DNA of 13,244 nucleotides, taken from NCBI GenBank assembly GCA_018971455.1, contig JAGXAV010000017.1, positions 1-13,244 on the forward strand. Reading direction: 5' to 3'. The translations under genes were made by a program, and so were the position numbers. Below the pieces are notes generated by a model that was not told the DNA's origin, made no database searches, and worked only from the letters and a program-made list of their open reading frames with translations. This document shows positions 2,930 through 12,291 of the stretch, one piece after another. This DNA is from Rhodospirillales bacterium. Lineage in GTDB: Bacteria; Pseudomonadota; Alphaproteobacteria; Acetobacterales; Acetobacteraceae. Position 1 is the first letter of the stretch, and each line of letters begins with the position of its first letter.

Positions 2930-4228
2930 TCAGCGAATTCCGCCGCTTCGTGCCTCAGCAAGCCCAAAACCCAGCAGAAGGAATGACAATCCGCCTATTT
3001 CAATGGCAAACGCGCTGCTCGTCGAGGCGATCGGCCATTGTTGGATAAGCAACGCAACGAACAACCCCACGCGCAGCGCTGTCGGCGTGCGCGACAGACC
3101 ACGACCGAGCACCGCCAGCCAGGTCACAACAAGTGCCGCGAACAGGAACAGGCCGGGAAAGCCCGAATCGGTGAGCGCCTGAAGATAGTGGTTGTGCGGA
3201 TGAATATTGCACCCCGCCAATCCCCCACCGTCATCGTTCGGATTGGCGGGCCAAGTCCAACCATGGAAGTAGCGCGGCTCGGCGCACCCGGTCCGGAAGC
3301 CATTGAACCCCCGCCCGGTCCACGGATGTTGCTCGGCGATCGCCACCGCGCGGGCCGCCAGTTCGCCATAGGGGCTCGTTGGGAAGGTCTCCATCTGGGC
3401 GCTGAACTTGGTCACCAGCCGGTAGAATGTCGGTGGCACCAGGACGGCGGACGCGGCGATCAGAATCGCCGCTCCCAGCAAGGCAATCGTCGCCGGCCGG
3501 CGGAGCGGAGCAAGCAGAGCCGCACTGACCACAAAACCCATCACCACCAACAGCAATGGCATGCGTTGGCCAATCAGTACCTGGGCGGCCAGCGCAGATC
3601 CGGTCAGCACGAGAGCAGCGAGTCCGCCGGCCCGGGAGCCGCGCCCAATAAGCGACATGGCCGGCGGGAGCAGCGCGACAAAGAATAGTCGTGAAATCGG
3701 CGCGCCTGCCCGGGGCTTGTCAAAAGGCCCGGTCAGTTCGCCGCTCGGCCAGCGTGCTTGACCAAACAAATTATGGCCGATGAAGGCCTGCAAATAAACC
3801 TGCAGAGCGATATAGGCCGCGCACAATGCAAGCACGCGCCACAACCAGCGGCGCAACCACGCATCACGCAGCACCTGGTGCTCGAGCGCCGCGGCCAGCA
3901 CCAGGTAACGCACGACCACGACCGCCTGGATCAGGCTCGCTGTCCCCCCGCGCCCAACGCCGGGCAGCGAGCAGAACACCAGCCATAACCACCACAACCC
4001 AGCCAGCACAACCCAGGGCGTACGCAACCAAATCCAGTCGCCAAGCAGGGCGCAACGAGCCAGGAACGCAACCGCGACGAGCCCGATGCATATCTCGGCA
4101 AGCACGTAGGCATGCAACATGCCTGGCGCCATCAACAACACCGCCGTCGCCGACATCTGGTCGAGCCGACGTAGCCAGGCACCGGTGGCACCGTCTCCAC
4201 CGTCCATGGCATTCGCCGTTCCGCTCAC
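2930..4228 (-). CDS. O-antigen ligase / polymerase family (Wzy_C) membrane protein
   Basis: A 432-residue polytopic inner-membrane protein with many hydrophobic helices (for example about 27-57, 70-90, 98-115, 128-150, 178-196, 202-220, 223-240, 246-265, 357-375, 386-404). A large periplasmic loop at about 266-355 holds I-H-P-H-N-H-Y-L-Q (342-350) before D-S-G-F-P-G-L, the hallmark of the WaaL/Wzy_C family; a conserved-type arginine lies in G-Q-R-M at 220-223. Members join O-antigen or related glycans from undecaprenyl diphosphate to lipid A-core, or polymerise them; ligase and polymerase cannot be separated by sequence alone. The GTG start at 4228 is preferred because it overlaps the lptF stop as GTGA and has GGAGG a few bases upstream; the ATG at 4207 is a less likely alternative. 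The overlap implies translational coupling with lptF. Confidence 0.88.
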   Translation of the reverse strand: MSGTANAMDGGDGATGAWLRRLDQMSATAVLLMAPGMLHAYVLAEICIGLVAVAFLARCALLGDWIWLRTPWVVLAGLWWLWLVFCSLPGVGRGGTASLIQAVVVVRYLVLAAALEHQVLRDAWLRRWLWRVLALCAAYIALQVYLQAFIGHNLFGQARWPSGELTGPFDKPRAGAPISRLFFVALLPPAMSLIGRGSRAGGLAALVLTGSALAAQVLIGQRMPLLLVVMGFVVSAALLAPLRRPATIALLGAAILIAASAVLVPPTFYRLVTKFSAQMETFPTSPYGELAARAVAIAEQHPWTGRGFNGFRTGCAEPRYFHGWTWPANPNDDGGGLAGCNIHPHNHYLQALTDSGFPGLFLFAALVVTWLAVLGRGLSRTPTALRVGLFVALLIQQWPIASTSSAFAIEIGGLSFLLLGFGLAEARSGGIR

Positions 4229-5358
4229 GCCGCCTCCACCACGGAGGGCGGCTCTTCGGCCGAACCGGGCGAGATGAACAGCCACGCGGCACAGATCATG
4301 GCGGGTGCCAGCGCCTGCAACCAAAGCAGTCCGATCAGCGCCGGGTGCCGGACAGCCAGGCTTTCGATGGCTAACTCCACCGCCACCAGACCAACCACTG
4401 CCGCGATGGCCGCCAGCGGACGGACGACCCCGCCATGGCGGCGGAACGGTCCCGTGAGCACCGAGACCAGCGCAATCATAACGAACGACAGAGTGGAAAG
4501 CGGGCCGGTGAGGCGCTTATTGGCCTCAACCCTCATGCGCGGATATTCGGACGGGTTGATCACACCAGGCCTTGGGTCAAGCAGCTCGGTCAGGCTCATT
4601 TCACCGATATCGCGCAGGCGCGGCGCCTCGTTGTGGTCCGGCTGGGACAGGTCGATCGCGCTCGACTGAAACGTGACGACATCTAGTTGGCCGGTATGGG
4701 CATCGATCTCCTCGCGGCTGCCGCGCATCAGCACCACTCTCGGCGCCGCGTTGCCGACCTCGAGTCGCCCACTCTCAGCAAATACCGTCACATGGTGCTG
4801 CGGGTCGCGCGCATCATCGACCATGATGCCACGAAGGGCTCCGTCCGCCGACCGATCGCGGACATAGACCACCAGATTGTCCATCACCGGCGTGAACACC
4901 CCCTCCTGAAGCAAAAAGGCGGCGAGCCGGTTCCGGATCTCGAATTGGAATTCGCGGAAAATTGCCTGGCTTCTCGGCACAACGTCCAAGGTCAATCCAT
5001 AGCCAATGACAACCGCAAGCCCGGCCAGAGCGAGCGCAGGTGTGGCCAGTGCGAGCGGCGAGACACCAGCGGCACGCATCACGGTAAGCTCGCGGTCGTT
5101 GGCCAGCCTCAGATAAATGAACTGCACCGTCATGAAGCAGGTAATCGGCAGAATCACCGCCAGAAAGCCCGGAATCAGCAATCCGGAAAGCTCCAGGAAC
5201 ACGCCTAGCGACAGGCCACGATTGACGACTACCTCAACAAAACGCAACGACTGCGTAAGCCAGATCAGTGCCACAAGAAAGCCGGTCACCACGACAAGCC
5301 CGAACAGCAATTGGCGGAACAGATATCTCTGCAGCAATAGGATGAAGGGGCGCACCAT
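4225..5358 (-). CDS. lptF: LPS export ABC transporter permease LptF
   Basis: A 377-residue permease of the LptF/LptG (YjgP/YjgQ) family, part of the LptB2FGC complex that extracts lipopolysaccharide from the inner membrane and feeds it to the LptA bridge. It has the expected six membrane helices, about 14-37, 55-80, 102-123, 283-303, 313-331 and 339-362, around a periplasmic beta-jellyroll region at about 125-275. The N-terminal pattern R-Y-L-F-R-Q-L-L, then I-W-L-T-Q-S-L-R, V-V-N-R-G and the coupling-helix region N-D-R-E-L-T-V-M-R-A-A-G-V-S (87-100) resemble alphaproteobacterial LptF more than LptG. AAGGTGG lies about 11 bases before ATG 5358. It begins 5 bases after the glycosyltransferase stop, and its stop overlaps the ligase start, so the three genes form one operon. 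Unusually, the neighbour is not lptG. Confidence 0.92.
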   Translation of the reverse strand: MVRPFILLLQRYLFRQLLFGLVVVTGFLVALIWLTQSLRFVEVVVNRGLSLGVFLELSGLLIPGFLAVILPITCFMTVQFIYLRLANDRELTVMRAAGVSPLALATPALALAGLAVVIGYGLTLDVVPRSQAIFREFQFEIRNRLAAFLLQEGVFTPVMDNLVVYVRDRSADGALRGIMVDDARDPQHHVTVFAESGRLEVGNAAPRVVLMRGSREEIDAHTGQLDVVTFQSSAIDLSQPDHNEAPRLRDIGEMSLTELLDPRPGVINPSEYPRMRVEANKRLTGPLSTLSFVMIALVSVLTGPFRRHGGVVRPLAAIAAVVGLVAVELAIESLAVRHPALIGLLWLQALAPAMICAAWLFISPGSAEEPPSVVEAA

Positions 5359-5363
5359 TGATT

Positions 5364-6752
5364 TTAGTCCACCTTCAGCGCTGCGAGCAGCCGGTCCGGC
5401 ACGCCCTGGCCGGCGTCGGTCGGAAGCAATGCCGCCGAGTGGTCGAGCGCGCGCTCGTCAAGGCACAACACGCGCCTGCCCCGCTCCCGAAGCAAAGCGC
5501 CAGGCCAAGCCGCCTCCAGCCGGGCCGCCGTCGCGCCCCGCGCGCCATGGGCAAGGGCAACGGCGGCAAGCGCAGCTGCATGCGGCCCGCCGCCAGCAGC
5601 GCTTTTGAGGGCATCCAGCCGGACGGGATCAAGGTCAGCCACCTCCACCAGCGTATCAAATCGCCGTTCGCCGAGTTCGAGGCACCGTGAATACGCGGCA
5701 AGCAGCCGGTCTGTAACGATCTCCCGGGTGAAATCGGCCTGATAGGCGGCTGACCCGCCGGCGATCAGTCGCGCGGCAAGGCCGGGCTCATCAAGCACGC
5801 GGCGTAGGCAGGATGCCAAGGCCGTCACATCGTCAATCGGACAAAGCAGCCCGTTTTCGCCGTCACGCACATATTGCCGCGCCCCATCGGCTCGCGTCGC
5901 CACCAGCGGCCGGCCAGCGGCCCAAGCCTCGACGATGACAGTGCCGAACGGCTCATAGCGACTTGGCAGCACGCAGATATCGGCGGCTTCCAGCAGCGCC
6001 TTGCGATCACCACGCCAGCCCAGGAAGCGTACTCGCCGGTCCACGCCCAACCGCGCCGCCAAAGCCTCCAAACTGGCCCGTTCGGGCCCATCGCCAGCGA
6101 CCCATAACGTACAGTCCGGCAGCCGCACGAGCGCCTCGAGCATGGTGTCGATGCCCTTCACGCCGTGCAGGCGTGCGAGCACAAGCAGCACCCGAGCATC
6201 TGCTGGTGTATCAAGCGCCGCGCGACTGATCCTCGCAGCCTCAGGCATGGTGCCAAAAGTGTTGAGCATGAAAACCCGATGTGGCGGCGCCCCGTTTGCG
6301 ATGACGTGGCGCGCGATATCGGGTGTGACACAGAAGAAGCAGTCCGCCCGGCGGAAATACTTCAGATCGTAGTAGTCACCGAACCACCCGATGACCGGAC
6401 AGGGCATGCGGGCCGGAATAAAGGAGTTGGCCCGCGACATCCATGCGTGCACCAGGTCGGCCTCTTGCGCCGCGGCTCGGATCACCCGCCCGCGGCCGCG
6501 CAGACGGTCGGCCAGCGAGAAGGCAAAGGGCATCATCTCGAGACGGGCCGCGATAAAGCGCGCCTTCAACGCCGGATAGGGCCGGCAAATGACGCGCTGC
6601 CATAGACCGCGCCCGTGCAGCGCAAGGATAGCGTCCTGAGCAAATGTCTCCGCCCCGCCTACCGGTGCTCCCGCGATCACGTGCAGCAATCGCATCGGCG
6701 CGGCTGGTGGGGCATCCTGTTCGGCCATGTGCGCGCTCATAGGCCAGTCCAT
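5364..6752 (-). CDS. GT4-type (GT-B fold) glycosyltransferase with C-terminal extension
   Basis: A 462-residue cytoplasmic glycosyltransferase. The N-terminal Rossmann domain starts M-R-L-L-H-V-I-A-G-A-P-V-G-G-A-E-T (20-36), with the acceptor-side glycine loop. The C-terminal domain has the family's donor-binding block: A-G-D-G-P-E (219-224), then E267-P-F-G-T-V-I-V-E275, the E-x7-E motif that contacts the nucleotide-sugar, and A-A-G-R-P-L-V-A-T. The domain ends near 358. About 100 residues follow, rich in Ala, Arg and Leu, that are not part of the standard fold. The start is uncertain: ATG 6752, 6740, 6728 and 6695 are in frame and none has a strong ribosome site; the last begins directly at the conserved strand. 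As the first gene of the lptF-ligase operon it probably adds a sugar to LPS core or O-antigen; the sugar is unknown. Confidence 0.88.
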   Translation of the reverse strand: MDWPMSAHMAEQDAPPAAPMRLLHVIAGAPVGGAETFAQDAILALHGRGLWQRVICRPYPALKARFIAARLEMMPFAFSLADRLRGRGRVIRAAAQEADLVHAWMSRANSFIPARMPCPVIGWFGDYYDLKYFRRADCFFCVTPDIARHVIANGAPPHRVFMLNTFGTMPEAARISRAALDTPADARVLLVLARLHGVKGIDTMLEALVRLPDCTLWVAGDGPERASLEALAARLGVDRRVRFLGWRGDRKALLEAADICVLPSRYEPFGTVIVEAWAAGRPLVATRADGARQYVRDGENGLLCPIDDVTALASCLRRVLDEPGLAARLIAGGSAAYQADFTREIVTDRLLAAYSRCLELGERRFDTLVEVADLDPVRLDALKSAAGGGPHAAALAAVALAHGARGATAARLEAAWPGALLRERGRRVLCLDERALDHSAALLPTDAGQGVPDRLLAALKVD

Positions 6753-6841: not shown

Positions 6842-7669
6842 ATGAAGCTGATGAGTTTCCGCCGGCCCGACTGCCCTGCGAGTTGGGGAATCGCAGAAGA
6901 CGGCACTGTGGCCGACTTGGGCGGCCGCGCGGTAAGCCTGCGTGCCGCTTTGGCCGGGGGGATCGATCTGTCCACTGCGGGCGCGCCCCGATATGACCTT
7001 GCCGACGTTGAATACCTGCCGCCTATCCCTGACCCAGAAAAAATCATTTGCGTCGGCCTGAATTACCTCAGCCATATCCTCGAGGGGGGGCGCGAGGTGC
7101 CAAAGCACCCCACCATCTTCACGCGCTGGGCCAATACACAAATTGGCCATGGCGGCACCATCCGGCGCCCTCATGCCTCGGCGACTCTGGATTTCGAGGG
7201 AGAGTTGGCGGTGGTGATCGCGCAGCGATGCCGGCATGTTCCGGCGAGCGAGGCGGCCGCGGTAATCGCCGGGTACAGCTGCTACAATGACTGCTCGGTG
7301 CGGGAATGGCAGCGCCATTCCTCCCAGTTCACACCAGGAAAGAACTTTCCCGCGACCGGGGGGTTCGGGCCGTTTCTGGTAACACCGGAGGAGGTCGGCG
7401 ACATCACCGCGCAGAGCCTGGTCACACGACTGAACGGGACCGAAATGCAACGCGCCAGGATCAACGATCTGGTGTTTAACGTCCCGAAACTGATCGAATA
7501 TTGCTCCACCTTCACCATACTCGAAGCCGGCGACGTGCTCATCACCGGTACGACCGGCGGGGTCGGCGCCTACCGCGAACCACAGATATGGATGAAGCCC
7601 GGTGATGTCGTTGAGGTTGAAATCAGCGGTGTCGGCCTCTTGCGCAACATGGTCGCCCAGGAGGTGTAA
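6842..7669 (+). CDS. Fumarylacetoacetate hydrolase (FAH) family protein
   Basis: A 275-residue cytoplasmic enzyme with a short N-terminal domain (1-60) and the FAH catalytic fold (65-275). Family landmarks are I-I-C-V-G-L-N-Y (68-75), the metal ligands in D-F-E119-G-E121-L-A-V-V-I, Asp150 in Y-N-D-C-S-V-R-E-W-Q, and G-K-N-F (166-169), which in many relatives continues D....P.GP. Here it reads P-A-T-G-G-F-G-P, a variant of that lid segment. I-T-G-T..G-V-G (234-242) and M-K-P-G-D-V-V-E-V-E-I-S-G-V-G (251-265) close the fold. Members cleave or decarboxylate beta-diketo acids in aromatic degradation (for example homoprotocatechuate pathway isomerase/decarboxylase) or act as oxaloacetate decarboxylases; the exact substrate cannot be read here. 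ATG 6842 was chosen on the ribosome site GGGGAG and the family-typical start M-K-L-M-S-F-R. It stands alone, divergent from the envelope operon. Confidence 0.9.
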   Translation: MKLMSFRRPDCPASWGIAEDGTVADLGGRAVSLRAALAGGIDLSTAGAPRYDLADVEYLPPIPDPEKIICVGLNYLSHILEGGREVPKHPTIFTRWANTQIGHGGTIRRPHASATLDFEGELAVVIAQRCRHVPASEAAAVIAGYSCYNDCSVREWQRHSSQFTPGKNFPATGGFGPFLVTPEEVGDITAQSLVTRLNGTEMQRARINDLVFNVPKLIEYCSTFTILEAGDVLITGTTGGVGAYREPQIWMKPGDVVEVEISGVGLLRNMVAQEV

Positions 7670-7787: not shown

Positions 7788-7917
7788 GTCACTTCACCCA
7801 CATTCCGAAGAGCAGCTTACCCGATCAACACCAACGCATCGTTCGAAGCACACCCTCATATTATAAGGCAATTAAGCCAGACGGAAATTAATCAGACAAA
7901 TCCATCGAACACTATAA

Positions 7918-8649
7918 CTAAGCGAATCCTCTTACATACTCACGAGCCTTATTAAAATCAGAGTTTCTTTCGTGATTAACACTTTCTCGAATGGTGTAAC
8001 CCCTTCCCCAGACCGTGCCGATGATGTTTTCTACATTTGCCGTTTTAAGTTTTTTCCGAAGTTTGCATATAAAAACGTCTATTATCTTCATTTCTGGCTC
8101 ATCAACTCCGCCATACAAATGATTTAGAAATATCTCCTTTGAGATTATAGTGTTTTTCTTCAACATTAGAAGCTCCATTATCATGTATTCTTTTCCGGTA
8201 AGGTGAATTTTTTTACCGTCCACGTACATTTCTTTATTTTCAGTATTCAATTCGATATTATTTATAATAATTTTTGCCTGGCTGAATCCTTTCCATCTCC
8301 TTGTAACAGCCAATATTCTAGATATAAATTCCTCTTTGTCGAATGGTTTTGTAATATATTCATCGGCGCCTATTGAAAACGCCTTTATTTTCGCCGGCAT
8401 TCTATTCATTCCAGAAATAACCATTATGGGAACATCTAATTTTGAATTCCTTATTCTTCGAATTACTTCGTATCCATCAGTGTCTGGGAGCATGATATCT
8501 AAAATGACAATGTCATATTCATAGTGTTTCACCAAATCAACGGCCTCTTCGCCCGTGACGGTCTTGTCCACAACAGCACCCCGAGCGGCAAGCATCAGCT
8601 GGATGCTTCTGGAAACTGCCACGTCATCTTCAACCAAGAGCACACGCAT
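7918..8649 (-). CDS. CtrA-family two-component response regulator (AT-rich paralog)
   Basis: A 243-residue OmpR-type regulator: receiver domain 1-115, winged helix 125-222. Receiver residues are all present: acidic pocket E7-D8-D9, phosphorylated Asp51 (L-D-I-M-L-P-D), Ser79, Tyr98 and Lys101 (T-K-P-F). The DNA-binding half closely follows CtrA, the alphaproteobacterial cell-cycle master regulator: V-H/I-H-L-T-G-K-E-Y (148-155), K-E-I-F-L-N-H-L-Y-G-G-V-D-E-P-E (171-186), K-I-I-D-V-F-I-C-K-L-R-K-K-L (188-201) and T-V-W-G-R-G-Y (212-218). It should therefore recognise TTAA-type CtrA sites. The start has GGAG (8657-8660) seven bases upstream. The C-terminal tail (222-243) ends R-G-F-A, not the Ala-Ala ClpXP tag of Caulobacter CtrA. 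Bases 8041-8520 are about 33% GC by hand count, with many ATA and AAA codons, against 62-72% in sampled neighbours. No histidine kinase or phosphotransferase is adjacent. It is probably a second CtrA copy and not the housekeeping one, though that cannot be shown from this window. Confidence 0.93.
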   Translation of the reverse strand: MRVLLVEDDVAVSRSIQLMLAARGAVVDKTVTGEEAVDLVKHYEYDIVILDIMLPDTDGYEVIRRIRNSKLDVPIMVISGMNRMPAKIKAFSIGADEYITKPFDKEEFISRILAVTRRWKGFSQAKIIINNIELNTENKEMYVDGKKIHLTGKEYMIMELLMLKKNTIISKEIFLNHLYGGVDEPEMKIIDVFICKLRKKLKTANVENIIGTVWGRGYTIRESVNHERNSDFNKAREYVRGFA

Positions 8650-8982
8650 TTGTTTTCTCCACTACTTCCGGTTGTAGCGTAGCAGTAACTTCTGCCGTTA
8701 ACAAGGATCAAATTTTAGCTTTTTGTGGTGCCGTCCTGGGCGCCCACGGCTATAGGGCTCACCGGTCAGTCTTCGATTTTCAGACCATTGATGAGCGTCG
8801 AAGGAGAGGCACCCTGATCCTCTCCAATTCCTGTGCCCCCAGGAGAGTAGAGCTTTGGGGAGCGGCCTCCCTTCGGAAGAACGGACCGATGGGCAATTCC
8901 CCGTTCACGGTGAGCGGCCGGTAGAAGCCCCACCGATCGGGAAGATCTGGGTCATGGCGAGTGGCGCCAGCCCCGCAGCGAG
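8650..8982. other. 333-base gap without an assignable gene; possible gene or element remnant
   Basis: The first 75 bases next to the ctrA-like start are AT-rich and probably hold its promoter; the rest returns to GC-rich composition. In the GC-rich part, CCTCTCC (8819-8825) can pair either with GGAGAGG (8803-8809, 7-bp stem, 9-base loop) or with GGAGAG (8842-8847, 6-bp stem), and GGGAG/CTCCC (8858-8871) forms another small hairpin. On the minus strand an open frame without a start codon runs about 70 codons from the end of the FHA gene, reading W-G-F-Y-R-P-L-T-V-N-G-E-L-P-I-G-P in its middle and ending at TGA near 8790. This looks protein-like but I do not recognise it. It could be a decayed gene, an insertion-element fragment or chance. 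Confidence 0.35.
8676..8704 (-). promoter_or_regulatory. Weak candidate promoter and CtrA half-site upstream of the ctrA-like gene
   Basis: On the minus strand TTGTTA (8704-8699), a 17-base spacer and TACGCT (8681-8676) form a weak -35/-10 pair about 30 bases before the start codon. GTTAAC (8697-8702), containing the TTAA half of the CtrA box, overlaps the -35, and a partial GTTA follows at 8-base spacing. A full TTAA-N7-TTAA is not present, so autoregulation is only a possibility. Confidence 0.22.
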
Positions 8983-10140
8983 CTAGGGAAAATGCAAGAC
9001 GACGAGGGCAAGATCATCCTCGAGCTCGCTGGTGCCGGTAGCGGCAATCAGAGCGTCGAACAGACGTTGCGGCTCGGGTATGCCCGGGCGCTCTGGGCCA
9101 CGAATCAAGGCCGCCATGTCCTCAAGCGTGAAAGCGGCACCGTCCGGGCGGCGCAGCGCAAGCACGACATTGCTGAAGATAACCAGCTTACTGCGCGGTG
9201 GTATGGTGACGCTCCGCGCCGTGTAAGCAGTCCCGCCCGCCGACCCAATCGCCGGATTTGGCGCGTGCAGCGCCGCAAGTCGCTCGCGATCTTCGGCCAG
9301 CAGCAACGCCGGATGGTGGCCGGCGGCGCAGAAATCCAGCCGGCGTTCATGCGGCCAGAATACCCAGCACCACATTGTGCAGCTGTGCGTCGCGTGCGCC
9401 GCCACCGGATAGCTGGCATTGAGCCGGCCCATCACCGCGGCCGGATCGTCTCCATCCCCGCCGGCGGCGCGCAGCACGCTGGCAACTGAAACCGCGTGCA
9501 TCGCCGCTGCCAGCCCTTGCGTCGCGCCGTCCATCAAGTAGCCGGCATACGCGCCGTCCGCGCGACGTCGATAGCCAAAGCAATCGCCACCCAGCCGGGC
9601 GCATGGCCGGAAGACCCAGTCGATCCGCAAATCCGCCGCATCCAGCTGTGCAGGCAGCAGGTCGAGCACATATTGCCGCGCCCTCTGGAGATCCTGATCG
9701 AGCGCATCTACCGTTTCCAATTCCCGACGGCCGCGTCGCTCATAGACCAGCCGATACGGCCCGATCGCTAGCCGCGCGCCAGGCTTGAGCGCCACTTGCT
9801 GACTGATCCGCGTACCATCGACGAAGGTCCCGTTGGTGGACCCCAAATCCGTTGCCAGCACCTCTCCGCCAGCGAGCACGTCGGCACCAATCAGGTCGAT
9901 GCGGCAGTGCCGGCGTGAAACGTCGGGCCCGGCCAATAGCAGATCACAACCCTCCGCCCGGCCAATAATCAGCGCCCCGGGCTCGAGGCGCCGCACCTCC
10001 ATCGGCGCGGCCAGATCAGTCGATTGGACGCGCAGCAGGTGTACCACCTCCTCCGCTGACGGGGCTCCCGCCAGAAGTGCCGCCGGGCGGCGAAACTGTG
10101 TCCGGTCGGGATCGGTGTCGGTGCCCTCCTGGTCAGACAC
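8983..10140 (-). CDS. FHA-domain protein fused to PP2C/SpoIIE-type phosphatase domain
   Basis: A 385-residue cytoplasmic protein. A disordered N-terminus (1-40) precedes an FHA phosphothreonine-binding domain at about 48-132: I-G-R (59-61), D-V-S-R-R-H-C (73-79) and D-L-G-S-T-N-G-T-F-V-D-G (98-109), with all phosphopeptide-binding residues present. A helical linker (143-163, ending L-L-P) leads to a SpoIIE/RsbU-type PP2C domain (170-384). It retains L-G-G-D186, D204, A-G-H-H-P (273-277) and the closing E-D-D-L-A-L-V (374-380). Two usual motifs are altered: the G-H-G after the second aspartate is A-T-Q-G, and the Y-T-D-G segment is F-S-N-V (322-325). It may be a weak or regulatory phosphatase acting on phosphoproteins or anti-sigma antagonists. 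The GTG start lies three bases after the LLM monooxygenase stop, suggesting coupled translation; no strong ribosome site is visible. Confidence 0.88.
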   Translation of the reverse strand: MSDQEGTDTDPDRTQFRRPAALLAGAPSAEEVVHLLRVQSTDLAAPMEVRRLEPGALIIGRAEGCDLLLAGPDVSRRHCRIDLIGADVLAGGEVLATDLGSTNGTFVDGTRISQQVALKPGARLAIGPYRLVYERRGRRELETVDALDQDLQRARQYVLDLLPAQLDAADLRIDWVFRPCARLGGDCFGYRRRADGAYAGYLMDGATQGLAAAMHAVSVASVLRAAGGDGDDPAAVMGRLNASYPVAAHATHSCTMWCWVFWPHERRLDFCAAGHHPALLLAEDRERLAALHAPNPAIGSAGGTAYTARSVTIPPRSKLVIFSNVVLALRRPDGAAFTLEDMAALIRGPERPGIPEPQRLFDALIAATGTSELEDDLALVVLHFP

Positions 10141-10143
10141 GAA

Positions 10144-11355
10144 TTAATCCGGTTTGATCGGCTCGACGTCACGCGCGCCGGAGGCGCGGGCGTGATACTC
10201 ATCCGGTACTGCCCGACCCGCATCAGTGAACGCCTTGCGTAGCGCCTCCACATTGGGACCGAAGATGCTACGGCGGTTGGCCTTGGCCCACTCATGCGAT
10301 GCCGCCAGCGTATCGAGTGACTGCTGAAAGCGCGGCATGACATAGCGGGCAAAGAGCTCGTAGCTGCGCCAGGTCGCTTCGCGATCGGCCCAATCATGGG
10401 CACGGAACAGGAAGCCGCCGAAACCGCCCTGACTCAGTTCGATCAGCCTCTCGACGCCGCGAATCACCGTCTCCGGCGAGCCAACCAGAGTACTGCCTGA
10501 CTTGATTCCATCCCGCAATGGATCTTCCGAGCGTCCGGGCGGGCGGCCCAACGCATCCTCGAAATAAGTCACGGTCTCCATGCGCTCACCGTGCTGCACA
10601 TCGGCGAAGGCGCGCGCATCGCTTTCTGCGACATGAACATTGAGGACCAGCCGCCATTGTCGACGATCCATCGTTTTCCCATGCGCCGCGGCGGTCTCCT
10701 CGGCAATCTTCCACTGCCCGGCCAATGCATCCGGCCCGCCCGGCAGCCCCGCGCCAAGAGACAGCATGCCGATTCCGTGCTTTCCCGCGCTTACTGGCCC
10801 GGCTGGAGTGAGCGTACTCGCACAGGCGATTGGGAAATGCGGATCACTATACGGGCGCAGATGCAGCCGCGCCTCACGCATCTCGAACCAATCGGTCTTA
10901 ATTGTTACCGGTTCCTCGCAGGCAAGCAGGCGCATAATGGCATCGAGCGACTCATCCATGCGCCGCCTTTGAGTCGCCGGATCGATCGCCAACATGTAAG
11001 CGTCCGAGACCAAAGCGCCGGGCCCGCAGCCAAGCATCACACGCCCTCGCGTCATGTGATCGAGCTGTACAAAGCGCTGTGCGACCATGAACGGGTGATG
11101 ATAAGGCAGGCTCGTCACCCCGGAGCCAAGGCGGATATTTTTTGTCCGCTCCGCGGCGGCGGCGATGATAAGCTCTGGGGATGCGATGATCTCCCAGCCA
11201 GCCGAATGATGCTCGCCGATCCAGGCTTCATCATAACCCAAACGGTCGAGATACTCGATCATTTCGATATCGCGCGCCAGCGCCAGCGTCGGATTATCGC
11301 CGATGCGATGGAATGGTGCGAGGAAGATGCCGAAGTTCAGTCCACGACGCGCCAT
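10144..11355 (-). CDS. LLM-class flavin-dependent monooxygenase (limonene monooxygenase-like)
   Basis: A 403-residue bacterial luciferase-like (LLM) TIM-barrel oxidoreductase. These enzymes use reduced flavin (FMNH2) from a partner reductase and O2 to oxidise small organic substrates. Typical elements are G-I-F-L-A-P-F-H (9-16), D-E-A-W-I-G-E-H-H (42-50), S-L-P-Y-H-H-P (82-88), D-H-M-T-R-G-R (99-105) followed by the glycine loop G-C-G-P-G-A (109-114), and V-G-S-P-E-T-V (291-297). The start G-I-F-L-A-P-F-H with length near 400 and the C-terminal tail resemble limonene 1,2-monooxygenase-type members, but substrate is not determined. ATG 11355 has a strong AGGGGGG just upstream; a farther in-frame start at 11406 would add 17 residues without family character. 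No flavin reductase gene is adjacent. The gene sits 72 bases after the phosphoesterase and directly before the FHA protein. Confidence 0.9.
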   Translation of the reverse strand: MARRGLNFGIFLAPFHRIGDNPTLALARDIEMIEYLDRLGYDEAWIGEHHSAGWEIIASPELIIAAAAERTKNIRLGSGVTSLPYHHPFMVAQRFVQLDHMTRGRVMLGCGPGALVSDAYMLAIDPATQRRRMDESLDAIMRLLACEEPVTIKTDWFEMREARLHLRPYSDPHFPIACASTLTPAGPVSAGKHGIGMLSLGAGLPGGPDALAGQWKIAEETAAAHGKTMDRRQWRLVLNVHVAESDARAFADVQHGERMETVTYFEDALGRPPGRSEDPLRDGIKSGSTLVGSPETVIRGVERLIELSQGGFGGFLFRAHDWADREATWRSYELFARYVMPRFQQSLDTLAASHEWAKANRRSIFGPNVEALRKAFTDAGRAVPDEYHARASGARDVEPIKPD

Positions 11356-11361
11356 GAGAGT

Positions 11362-11398
11362 CCCCCCTGTGGCGGGTATCGTGCAACGAGTAAGGGGG
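11362..11398 (-). promoter_or_regulatory. Ribosome site of the LLM gene inside a possible hairpin
   Basis: The Shine-Dalgarno AGGGGGG of the LLM gene (minus strand, 11368-11362) is complementary to CCCCCT (minus strand, 11398-11393), giving a 6-bp all but one GC stem with a 24-base loop. If formed, it would hide the ribosome site. Seen directly in the sequence; regulatory meaning is inference, and part of the stem could simply reflect a strong SD in GC-rich DNA. Confidence 0.3.
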
Positions 11399-11427
11399 TC
11401 TGCCAAGTCACCTACGCCACCGGCGGG

Positions 11428-12291
11428 TCAGGGCAACAGCCCGTGCGCTACCGCCGCCAAGCCTGGCGGCGCCGCGCCAGCCAACCGGGCAATGGTCGCC
11501 AGCGTGTCGTAATGGTTCACCGGGCGGGAGTCTTGCCCCGGCACGACCCCGGCGCCGAGCACCAGCAACGGCATCGTCGCTGACGCGAAGGGCGAAATAT
11601 CGTCCTCCTCGTCCCAGGTGATGATCAACAGACTGTGATGCAATGGCGCCCAGTCAGCATAGGCGGCGAGATGCGCACGGAGCCAGCTATCGCCGGCGCG
11701 CACGAGCGCCGGCCCGAAATTCAACGCTGATGTTCCGTGCATATCGTGGTTCTGGTCCGGCACGACGAAAGCAACGCGCGGCAGGTCCTCGAAATTGGAG
11801 GGAAAGGCTGAGAATGGCTTATTGGCGGCGGGCGTGATAGCCCAGACGCTTGGCGTAGCTGACTGCCAGTTCGACCAGGGATTGTGCTTGCGTGCATAGG
11901 CCCCGGCACGCATCACCAGGCTGCCCGCTTTCGGCAACCCCTCGCTGTAGCCTATGAAATCGGCCCCCGCCCTGCGCAGCGCGCCGGCAAGATTGGGGGT
12001 CACAAGTGGCGCGCCCTCCACAGCGCCGTCGTGACGCACGCCCTGCGTGGTGCCCGAGAATAGGGCGAGATAATTGGGCTGGCTTGGATGCGCCACCCCC
12101 CGCGCACGCGTATAGACCCGAGCGCGCGGCACAAGCACATGGTTGATGAAGGGGGCCGCATCGCTGCCGATAATCTCGTTTGCGCTGTGATTCTCTTCGA
12201 TGACGACAACAATATGCGCGACTGCCGCAACCGCCGCGGCGGGCTTCATGAAGATCGCCAGCAGCAGAAGAAGCACCTCGAGGCGCCTCAA
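11428..12291 (-). CDS. Secreted phosphoesterase (acid phosphatase / phospholipase C-like)
   Basis: A 287-residue protein of the phosphoesterase family that includes acid phosphatase AcpA and PI-PLC-like enzymes, hydrolysing phosphate monoesters or phospholipid headgroups outside the cytoplasm. The N-terminus M-R-R-L-E-V-L-L-L-L-L-A-I-F-M (1-15), then A-A-A-V-A-A-V-A, is a good Sec signal peptide. Catalytic landmarks are I-E-E-N-H-S (31-36, metal-binding Glu/Asn), H-P-S-Q-P-N-Y-L (68-75, with the probable nucleophile Ser70), P-D-Q-N-H-D-M-H-G (178-186) and T-W-D-E-E-D (225-230, metal-binding acids). TTG 12291 is preferred as the start because it overlaps the upstream stop as TTGA and preserves the signal peptide; ATG 12249 would remove its positive and hydrophobic segments. 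It is shorter than classical AcpA (about 500 residues) but in the range of small relatives. Confidence 0.87.
   Translation of the reverse strand: MRRLEVLLLLLAIFMKPAAAVAAVAHIVVVIEENHSANEIIGSDAAPFINHVLVPRARVYTRARGVAHPSQPNYLALFSGTTQGVRHDGAVEGAPLVTPNLAGALRRAGADFIGYSEGLPKAGSLVMRAGAYARKHNPWSNWQSATPSVWAITPAANKPFSAFPSNFEDLPRVAFVVPDQNHDMHGTSALNFGPALVRAGDSWLRAHLAAYADWAPLHHSLLIITWDEEDDISPFASATMPLLVLGAGVVPGQDSRPVNHYDTLATIARLAGAAPPGLAAVAHGLLP

Follow-up and report, generated by a model that had tools for sequence, protein, structure and literature searches.

The question raised by this locus is how a ctrA gene came to lie, AT-rich, in otherwise GC-rich DNA, and whether it is still intact. CtrA stands at the top of motility and cell-cycle control in alphaproteobacteria and is usually regarded as chromosomally inherited. 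The window analysed here is the whole stretch of 13,244 nucleotides, apparently the entire length of contig C532 of bin G000 (3.12 Mb in 721 contigs, 85.8% complete, 2.5% contaminated). The features on which the argument turns are collected in Table 1.

Table 1. Features of the window, with positions counted from its first nucleotide
Feature	Position	Strand	Remarks
Wzy-like / LptF / glycosyltransferase block	2930..6752	-	
Fumarylacetoacetate hydrolase (FAH)-family gene	6842..7669 (from ATG at 6842)	+	GC 62%; convergent with ctrA
AT-rich segment	7858..8540		34.3% GC; codons ~37 to stop of ctrA and ~60 bases downstream; maximum-likelihood segmentation; 60-base profile drops from ~7830
ctrA-family response regulator	7918..8649	-	243 aa; GC 38.1%, GC3 40%; intact open frame; only CtrA found in the bin
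First 40 codons of ctrA	8530..8649	-	GC 57%, GC3 62%, host-like; 0 of 15 residues conserved in >=90% of family rows changed
GTTAAC, putative CtrA-type half-site upstream of ctrA start	8697..8702		weak; half-site in 29 of 90 family promoters
FHA and SpoIIE-type phosphatase gene	8983..10140	-	upstream neighbour, on ctrA strand
Luciferase-like monooxygenase	10144..11406	-	80.5% identical to G091

An intact member of the CtrA family

The product of the gene carries a Response_reg and a Trans_reg_C domain (Pfam PF00072, 99.5 bits, and PF00486, 67.5 bits), the receiver and winged-helix output that mark CtrA as a regulator of the OmpR/PhoB type. Its best NCBIfam model is CtrA (Rhodobacter type) with 321.7 bits, the runner-up reaching 161.6, and the score lies below the 350-bit cut-off of the model. 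Since the model is of the Rhodobacter type, and since a Gluconobacter CtrA also misses the cut-off (327.8 bits, while the other four of the five family CtrAs scored reach 364-379), such a score is compatible with CtrA membership. The residues D8, D9, D51 (the phosphoacceptor), S79 and K101 are all retained, and 29 of the 33 residues in the recognition stretch equal the consensus of 90 family rows; these residues and the recognition stretch we take to be functionally important in CtrA. At the C-terminus, where a degradation tail would be expected in CtrA, the protein reads GFA; the family proteins end in AA in 68 and in a final A in 78 of the 90 rows.

The CtrA identity and the intact phosphorylation and DNA-recognition residues proposed in the first-pass annotation are thus borne out by the domains, the best model and the conserved residues. 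The suggestion made there of a decaying paralog has to be abandoned, as 203 codons at 34.5% GC are free of stops (chance expectation 2.5e-7) and the key residues are kept; the open frame and the retained residues exclude a pseudogene. The CtrA gene is real and intact and highly unusual in its composition and location, but it is a variant of a known system and not a new kind.

An AT-rich segment in GC-rich DNA

Outside the AT-rich segment the window has 63.1% GC, and a model with two compositions is 110 lnL units above one with a single composition; within 3 lnL units the segment may start at 7800-7863 and end at 8523-8730. The count of 157 G+C among 480 bases at 8041-8520 in the first-pass annotation was reproduced exactly. 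The flanks are indeed high in GC, but the 62-72% per 60-base block given for them is slightly flattering, as only 46% of the 203 blocks fall in that range (47-80%, median 63%). Among 565 overlapping 480-base windows off the island, the minimum is 56.7% and the mean 63.4% GC. In the bin, no 500-base window below 54% GC was found among 2413 taken from 46 readable contigs (262 kb).

The anomaly claimed for the gene holds on comparison with its relatives. The gap in GC between gene and flanks is -0.270 (38.1% vs 65.1%), outside the range of -0.136 to +0.034 spanned by all 109 comparison loci (90 family rows, 12 of the Gluconobacter type and 7 others, encompassing 97 distinct genes with some species represented twice). 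Family ctrA genes are mostly below their flanks in GC at these loci; the host-like GC of a core Acetobacteraceae ctrA is nevertheless lacking here, and the composition is that expected of a horizontally acquired gene. The bias extends to the protein, in which F, Y, M, I, N and K make up 37.8% of the residues as against 22.5 +- 1.7% (maximum 26.1%) in the 90 family rows, and at most 31.5% over 129 CtrA-type rows that include genome regions of 29-43% GC. The codons ATA, AGA and AAA are used in the body of ctrA and nearly shunned by the nine neighbouring genes: ATA accounts for 13 and AAA for 16 of 204 codons in the former, and each for 9 of 3424 in the latter. Composition, rather than divergence, is what distinguishes this ctrA.

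A ctrA gene away from fliI

In the family, fliI is found on the opposite strand within 500 bases of ctrA at 60 of the 68 loci from named records. Four of the eight loci without it hold less than 530 bases upstream before the contig ends, while at L072, L094, L108 and L109 the 1.8-6 kb covered are without fliI. The window ctrA is not divergent from fliI, being flanked by the FAH hydrolase and FHA-phosphatase genes. L108 and L109 come from a single strain of Roseomonas nepalensis with a ctrA gene on each of two contigs, both genes being 92% identical to their respective nearest rows; their GC lies above that of the flanks, unlike nearly all other loci.

The surrounding genes are GC-rich and, besides those in Table 1, encode a PHB depolymerase, a GST-like protein, a cupin, a phosphoesterase and a VWA protein. 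In the comparison loci, the window genes other than ctrA gave two weak partial matches only. The genome G091 keeps the order VWA, luciferase-like and FHA (76.3, 80.5 and 50% identity), but next to FHA it has an AMP nucleoside phosphorylase gene instead of ctrA, its own ctrA adjoining fliI. The match of the luciferase-like monooxygenase ties the contig to the Acetobacteraceae. At the opposite flank, LptF is again next to the glycosyltransferase gene in G018, G004 and G033, the last with the Wzy-like gene as well. With conserved blocks on both sides, ctrA lies at or near a block junction.

Two side observations concern these neighbours. The phosphoesterase-family protein (11428-12291) matches its Pfam profile from position 126 of 356 and may be a shortened member. 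FHA-SpoIIE phosphatase genes occur twice in the bin, the window gene and one on contig C154 (5258-6250) being 39% identical, and matches at E 1e-25 were obtained in 22 of 150 family genomes, its own genome counted.

No integrase or IS was found among the window ORFs scanned, no tRNA in the tRNA search and no non-coding RNA with Rfam. As borders of a mobile element, a direct repeat pair of 14 nt and an inverted one of 13 nt were considered and judged to be probably chance pairs. A promoter and terminator scan gave 3 promoter-like sites against 2.4 in shuffles, and 0 terminators against 1.2. Upstream of ctrA neither a full CtrA box nor GANTC is present, only the single GTTAAC, which we take to be a CtrA-type half-site motif, and autoregulation through a CtrA box was rejected on this ground. 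Among the 90 family promoters (some species twice), a full box occurs in 2, a half-site in 29 and GANTC in 35.

Copy number in an incomplete bin

A search of the bin for a second ctrA gave none, the next-best matches sharing 26-31% identity along their full length, as is usual among OmpR-type regulators; however, this comes from a bin that is 85.8% complete and in which fliI was not found either, the three matches to it at 27-31% probably being rotary or Rho-type ATPases of another kind. The idea that flagella had been lost was dropped, since a 3.3 kb contig carries flhA, next to a sigma-54 activator gene that is truncated at the end of the contig. The presence of flhA together with the absence of fliI suggests that fliI is probably unassembled, and likewise a native ctrA if the family arrangement has been kept. 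A native ctrA may thus be missing from the assembly. The distance from ctrA/fliI to flhA is about 8-14 kb in G018, G017 and G001 and about 290 kb in G011, so their linkage is not general.

That ctrA is normally single, as assumed in the first-pass annotation, is too strong a statement: several relatives have further CtrA-like copies, the distant ones of which may be other OmpR-type regulators. The lack of kinase partners beside the gene carries little weight, as the conserved neighbour in the family is fliI, and a ChpT-family match above cut-off and a GcrA-family match are found elsewhere in the bin.

Divergence and position in the tree

The nearest protein is 63% identical (among the best 120 of 7819 matches listed, with 8000 candidates scored). 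CtrAs of the Acetobacteraceae type head the matches, at about 55-63%, and the closest loci are titled mainly Acetobacteraceae or Rhodospirillales. A quick tree of 82 rows, thinned of rows at least 86% alike and omitting both the AT-rich L147 and the further regulators of the bin, put the window CtrA inside a set of 63 Acetobacteraceae rows (split support 100), with its composition flagged as odd. Placing the window CtrA outside the remaining 62 family rows gave a tree with a better score, which the test did not reject (p 0.935), so that the protein stands in or just beside the Acetobacteraceae clade, its exact placement being unsure. The end branch is 3.0 against a median of 0.38, with comparable lengths in the family rows L143 (3.97), L144 (3.38) and L145 (2.99).

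Divergence was also set against that of LptF, for which the closest relative listed is 68% identical. On the CtrA-against-LptF line of 20 relatives the window lay 4.4 residual sd below, with only G001 alike. These 20 were taken from the 31 family genomes with an LptF match, a biased choice in which most of the fast-evolving relatives were absent, and seven were added; G004, G023, G029 and G032 stayed outside, their CtrA match being absent, partial or distant. With 27 relatives, the mean deviations of G013 (-1.69 sd), G001 (-1.41) and G030 (L145; -1.23) exceed that of the window (-1.07), and G008, G022 and G025 deviate nearly as much. Exceptional divergence as a sign of transfer was accordingly withdrawn; this slightly lowers the case for transfer and for the displacement or duplication of the core regulator by a chimeric ctrA (see below), and slightly raises that for drift in place. 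On these distances, fast CtrA evolution recurs within the family. In G001 such a gene (L144; 6875-7540 in L222) adjoins fliI and has normal GC, while in G013 (L143), from a genome region of 41% GC, ctrA has 43.6% GC and a protein with 25.7% of F, Y, M, I, N and K. The share of these residues in the fast-evolving relatives, G013 included, is 20-26%.

A possible mosaic

The AT-rich composition does not extend over the whole gene. Codons 41-222 have 34% GC and 36% GC3, in contrast to the host-like first 40 codons, while the difference in GC between the same two parts in the 90 family rows is 0.009 +- 0.038, with a maximum of 0.115. The changed conserved sites are distributed likewise, as among residues with at least 90% conservation across rows, all 15 in the first part are unaltered and 25 of the 109 further on have changed (Fisher p 0.04); at 95% conservation the counts are 0 of 9 and 17 of 92, and significance is lost (p 0.35). 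Both the shift in composition and the changes at conserved sites begin near codon 40, a cut that was picked after the composition had been seen. These tests were based on the 90 family rows, representing 78 distinct genes and excluding the Gluconobacter-type L116-L127, seven non-family rows and the later L129-L148. The DNA identity of the first part to the family is lower than that of all but 5 of the 90 rows, and at third positions of all but 2, and the part is therefore no recent copy of any family gene compared. The window ctrA may be a mosaic with a host-like 5' end.

Origin of the AT-rich gene

Given the composition and the location, the best reading is a CtrA gained from an AT-rich source, and we infer such a transfer with a probability somewhat below one half (roughly 0.47). 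The horizontal transfer proposed in the first-pass annotation stands to this extent, though no donor or mobile element was identified among the best 120 matches listed or the window ORFs scanned. The gene, encoding a working CtrA-type regulator, would have resided for long in an AT-rich setting, whether in an AT-rich relative of the Acetobacteraceae or as a mobile or plasmid copy rich in AT, before its acquisition by a GC-rich Acetobacteraceae lineage, landing between the FAH-hydrolase and FHA-phosphatase genes and not at fliI. Host-like sequence may have taken the place of its 5' end or been joined to it. A spread of ctrA is made possible by the extra CtrA-like copies of relatives and by known plasmid-borne CtrA genes; on the other side, the extra copies in relatives have host-like GC, which speaks against acquisition. 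A phage or plasmid origin was rejected, as the matches to 174 phage and at least 5000 plasmid records were all below 60%, and viral contigs gave one match, at 34%. Among the papers listed in literature searches, judged by titles and the beginnings of abstracts, none describes a ctrA of Acetobacteraceae as AT-rich or transferred.

Further-reaching is the idea that a chimeric ctrA, of 40 host-like codons and the remainder from an unsampled AT-rich lineage, displaced or duplicated the core regulator, so that the CtrA circuit would run on a foreign, AT-adapted effector domain; this we regard as rather improbable.

Alternatively, the native ctrA of the lineage may have left its site at fliI and be changing rapidly where it now lies, under relaxed constraint and with local AT-biased change, a reading which is possible if doubtful. 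It is consistent with the gene being the only CtrA in the bin, with its position in or beside the Acetobacteraceae clade, with the rapid evolution of CtrA in G013, G001 and G030 (in G001 at fliI and at normal GC) and with the tendency of family ctrA genes to lie below their flanks in GC. The sole copy loses weight, however, in a bin without fliI despite flhA, whose assembly may lack the native site; the amino-acid bias is absent from the fast-evolving relatives, and a 5' composition border within the gene is hard to account for by drift. The first-pass annotation had taken a sole ctrA grouping with the species tree, with equally AT-rich orthologs at the same locus in relatives, as the pattern at odds with transfer, and the outcome is mixed: the copy is the only one in an incomplete bin, and its long branch lies within the family or next to it, but no equally AT-rich ortholog was found in the GC-rich relatives examined.

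That the contig is misbinned, gene and flanks coming from another Acetobacteraceae organism, appears unlikely, even if its composition sets it apart. The flank GC of 63.3% is lower than in any of the 46 readable contigs sampled from the bin (mean 69.8, sd 2.1), the tetranucleotide distance of 0.254 exceeds those of all 23 sampled bin contigs of at least 5 kb (0.089-0.233), and the mean signature correlation is the lowest of 25 (0.834, the next being 0.842). Against this, contigs C451 and C180 have GC near that of the window and correlate with it at 0.89-0.90, as does C445, of ordinary GC, at 0.89; LptF and PhaZ are single-copy in the bin, and the neighbours in the window are Acetobacteraceae-like, as is the bin. 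The two low-GC contigs (C451, L189; C180, L179), with their window-like signature, perhaps represent a second replicon, an island or shared contamination. Were misbinning true, copy number in the bin would be uninformative, while the anomaly of gene against flank would stand.

Very improbable is an assembly chimera of a GC-rich contig with the AT-rich ctrA of another organism, for although one composition border lies inside a conserved gene and the source bin is fragmented (721 contigs), the frame crosses the border unbroken to give a full-length CtrA, and two chance joins would be needed at borders without a shared repeat.

Predicted function and comparison with known CtrA systems

If gained from an AT-rich source, the window CtrA would most likely receive phosphate at D51 from a relay of the CckA-ChpT type, bind the same TTAA-type boxes as other family CtrAs and act on motility genes, alongside or in place of a native copy. 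Motility is the most likely sphere of action of a divergent CtrA here. A cell-cycle role of CtrA is not established for Rhodospirillales; in excerpts of PMC8116508, CtrA loss in two Rhodospirillales is described as without harm to growth or viability. The same excerpts give ctrA, gcrA and ccrM together in 72-82% of Rhodospirillales genomes, and an excerpt of PMC2877005 describes Granulibacter as without even ctrA; as far as these excerpts go, the presence of ctrA varies within the order. If the window gene is working, even CtrA can be exchanged or drift far, and the locus offers a natural test of how much of a DNA-binding surface must stay fixed, with the recognition stretch near-constant and the rest shifted to AT-coded residues.

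Compared to the CtrA of Acetobacteraceae such as Limobrevibacterium gyesilva (L050, which over 250 aa is identical to the fliI-linked copy of G091), the window protein shares the domain order, D51, the N-terminal MRVLLVEDD and the recognition stretch typical of the family. It differs in being about 60% identical, AT-rich, located away from fliI and in ending in GFA, not AA. The solved CtrA receiver (PDB 4qpj, a structure of the receiver only) matches residues 1-118 with E 1.1e-33. The extra CtrA-like copies of G007, G015, G016, G020, G033 and G091 are likewise without a fliI match in the surrounding stretches; these copies (L228-L233, L295-L297) have, however, host-like GC and are 32-50% identical to the window protein, and some may be other OmpR-type regulators. 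The plasmid-borne CtrA genes, on large replicons of Azospirillum and on Methylobacterium plasmids of 44-66 kb, are also off the usual chromosomal place, while the identity of their products to the window protein reaches no more than 55.6% in the 20 rows listed and stays below 60% in all of at least 5000.
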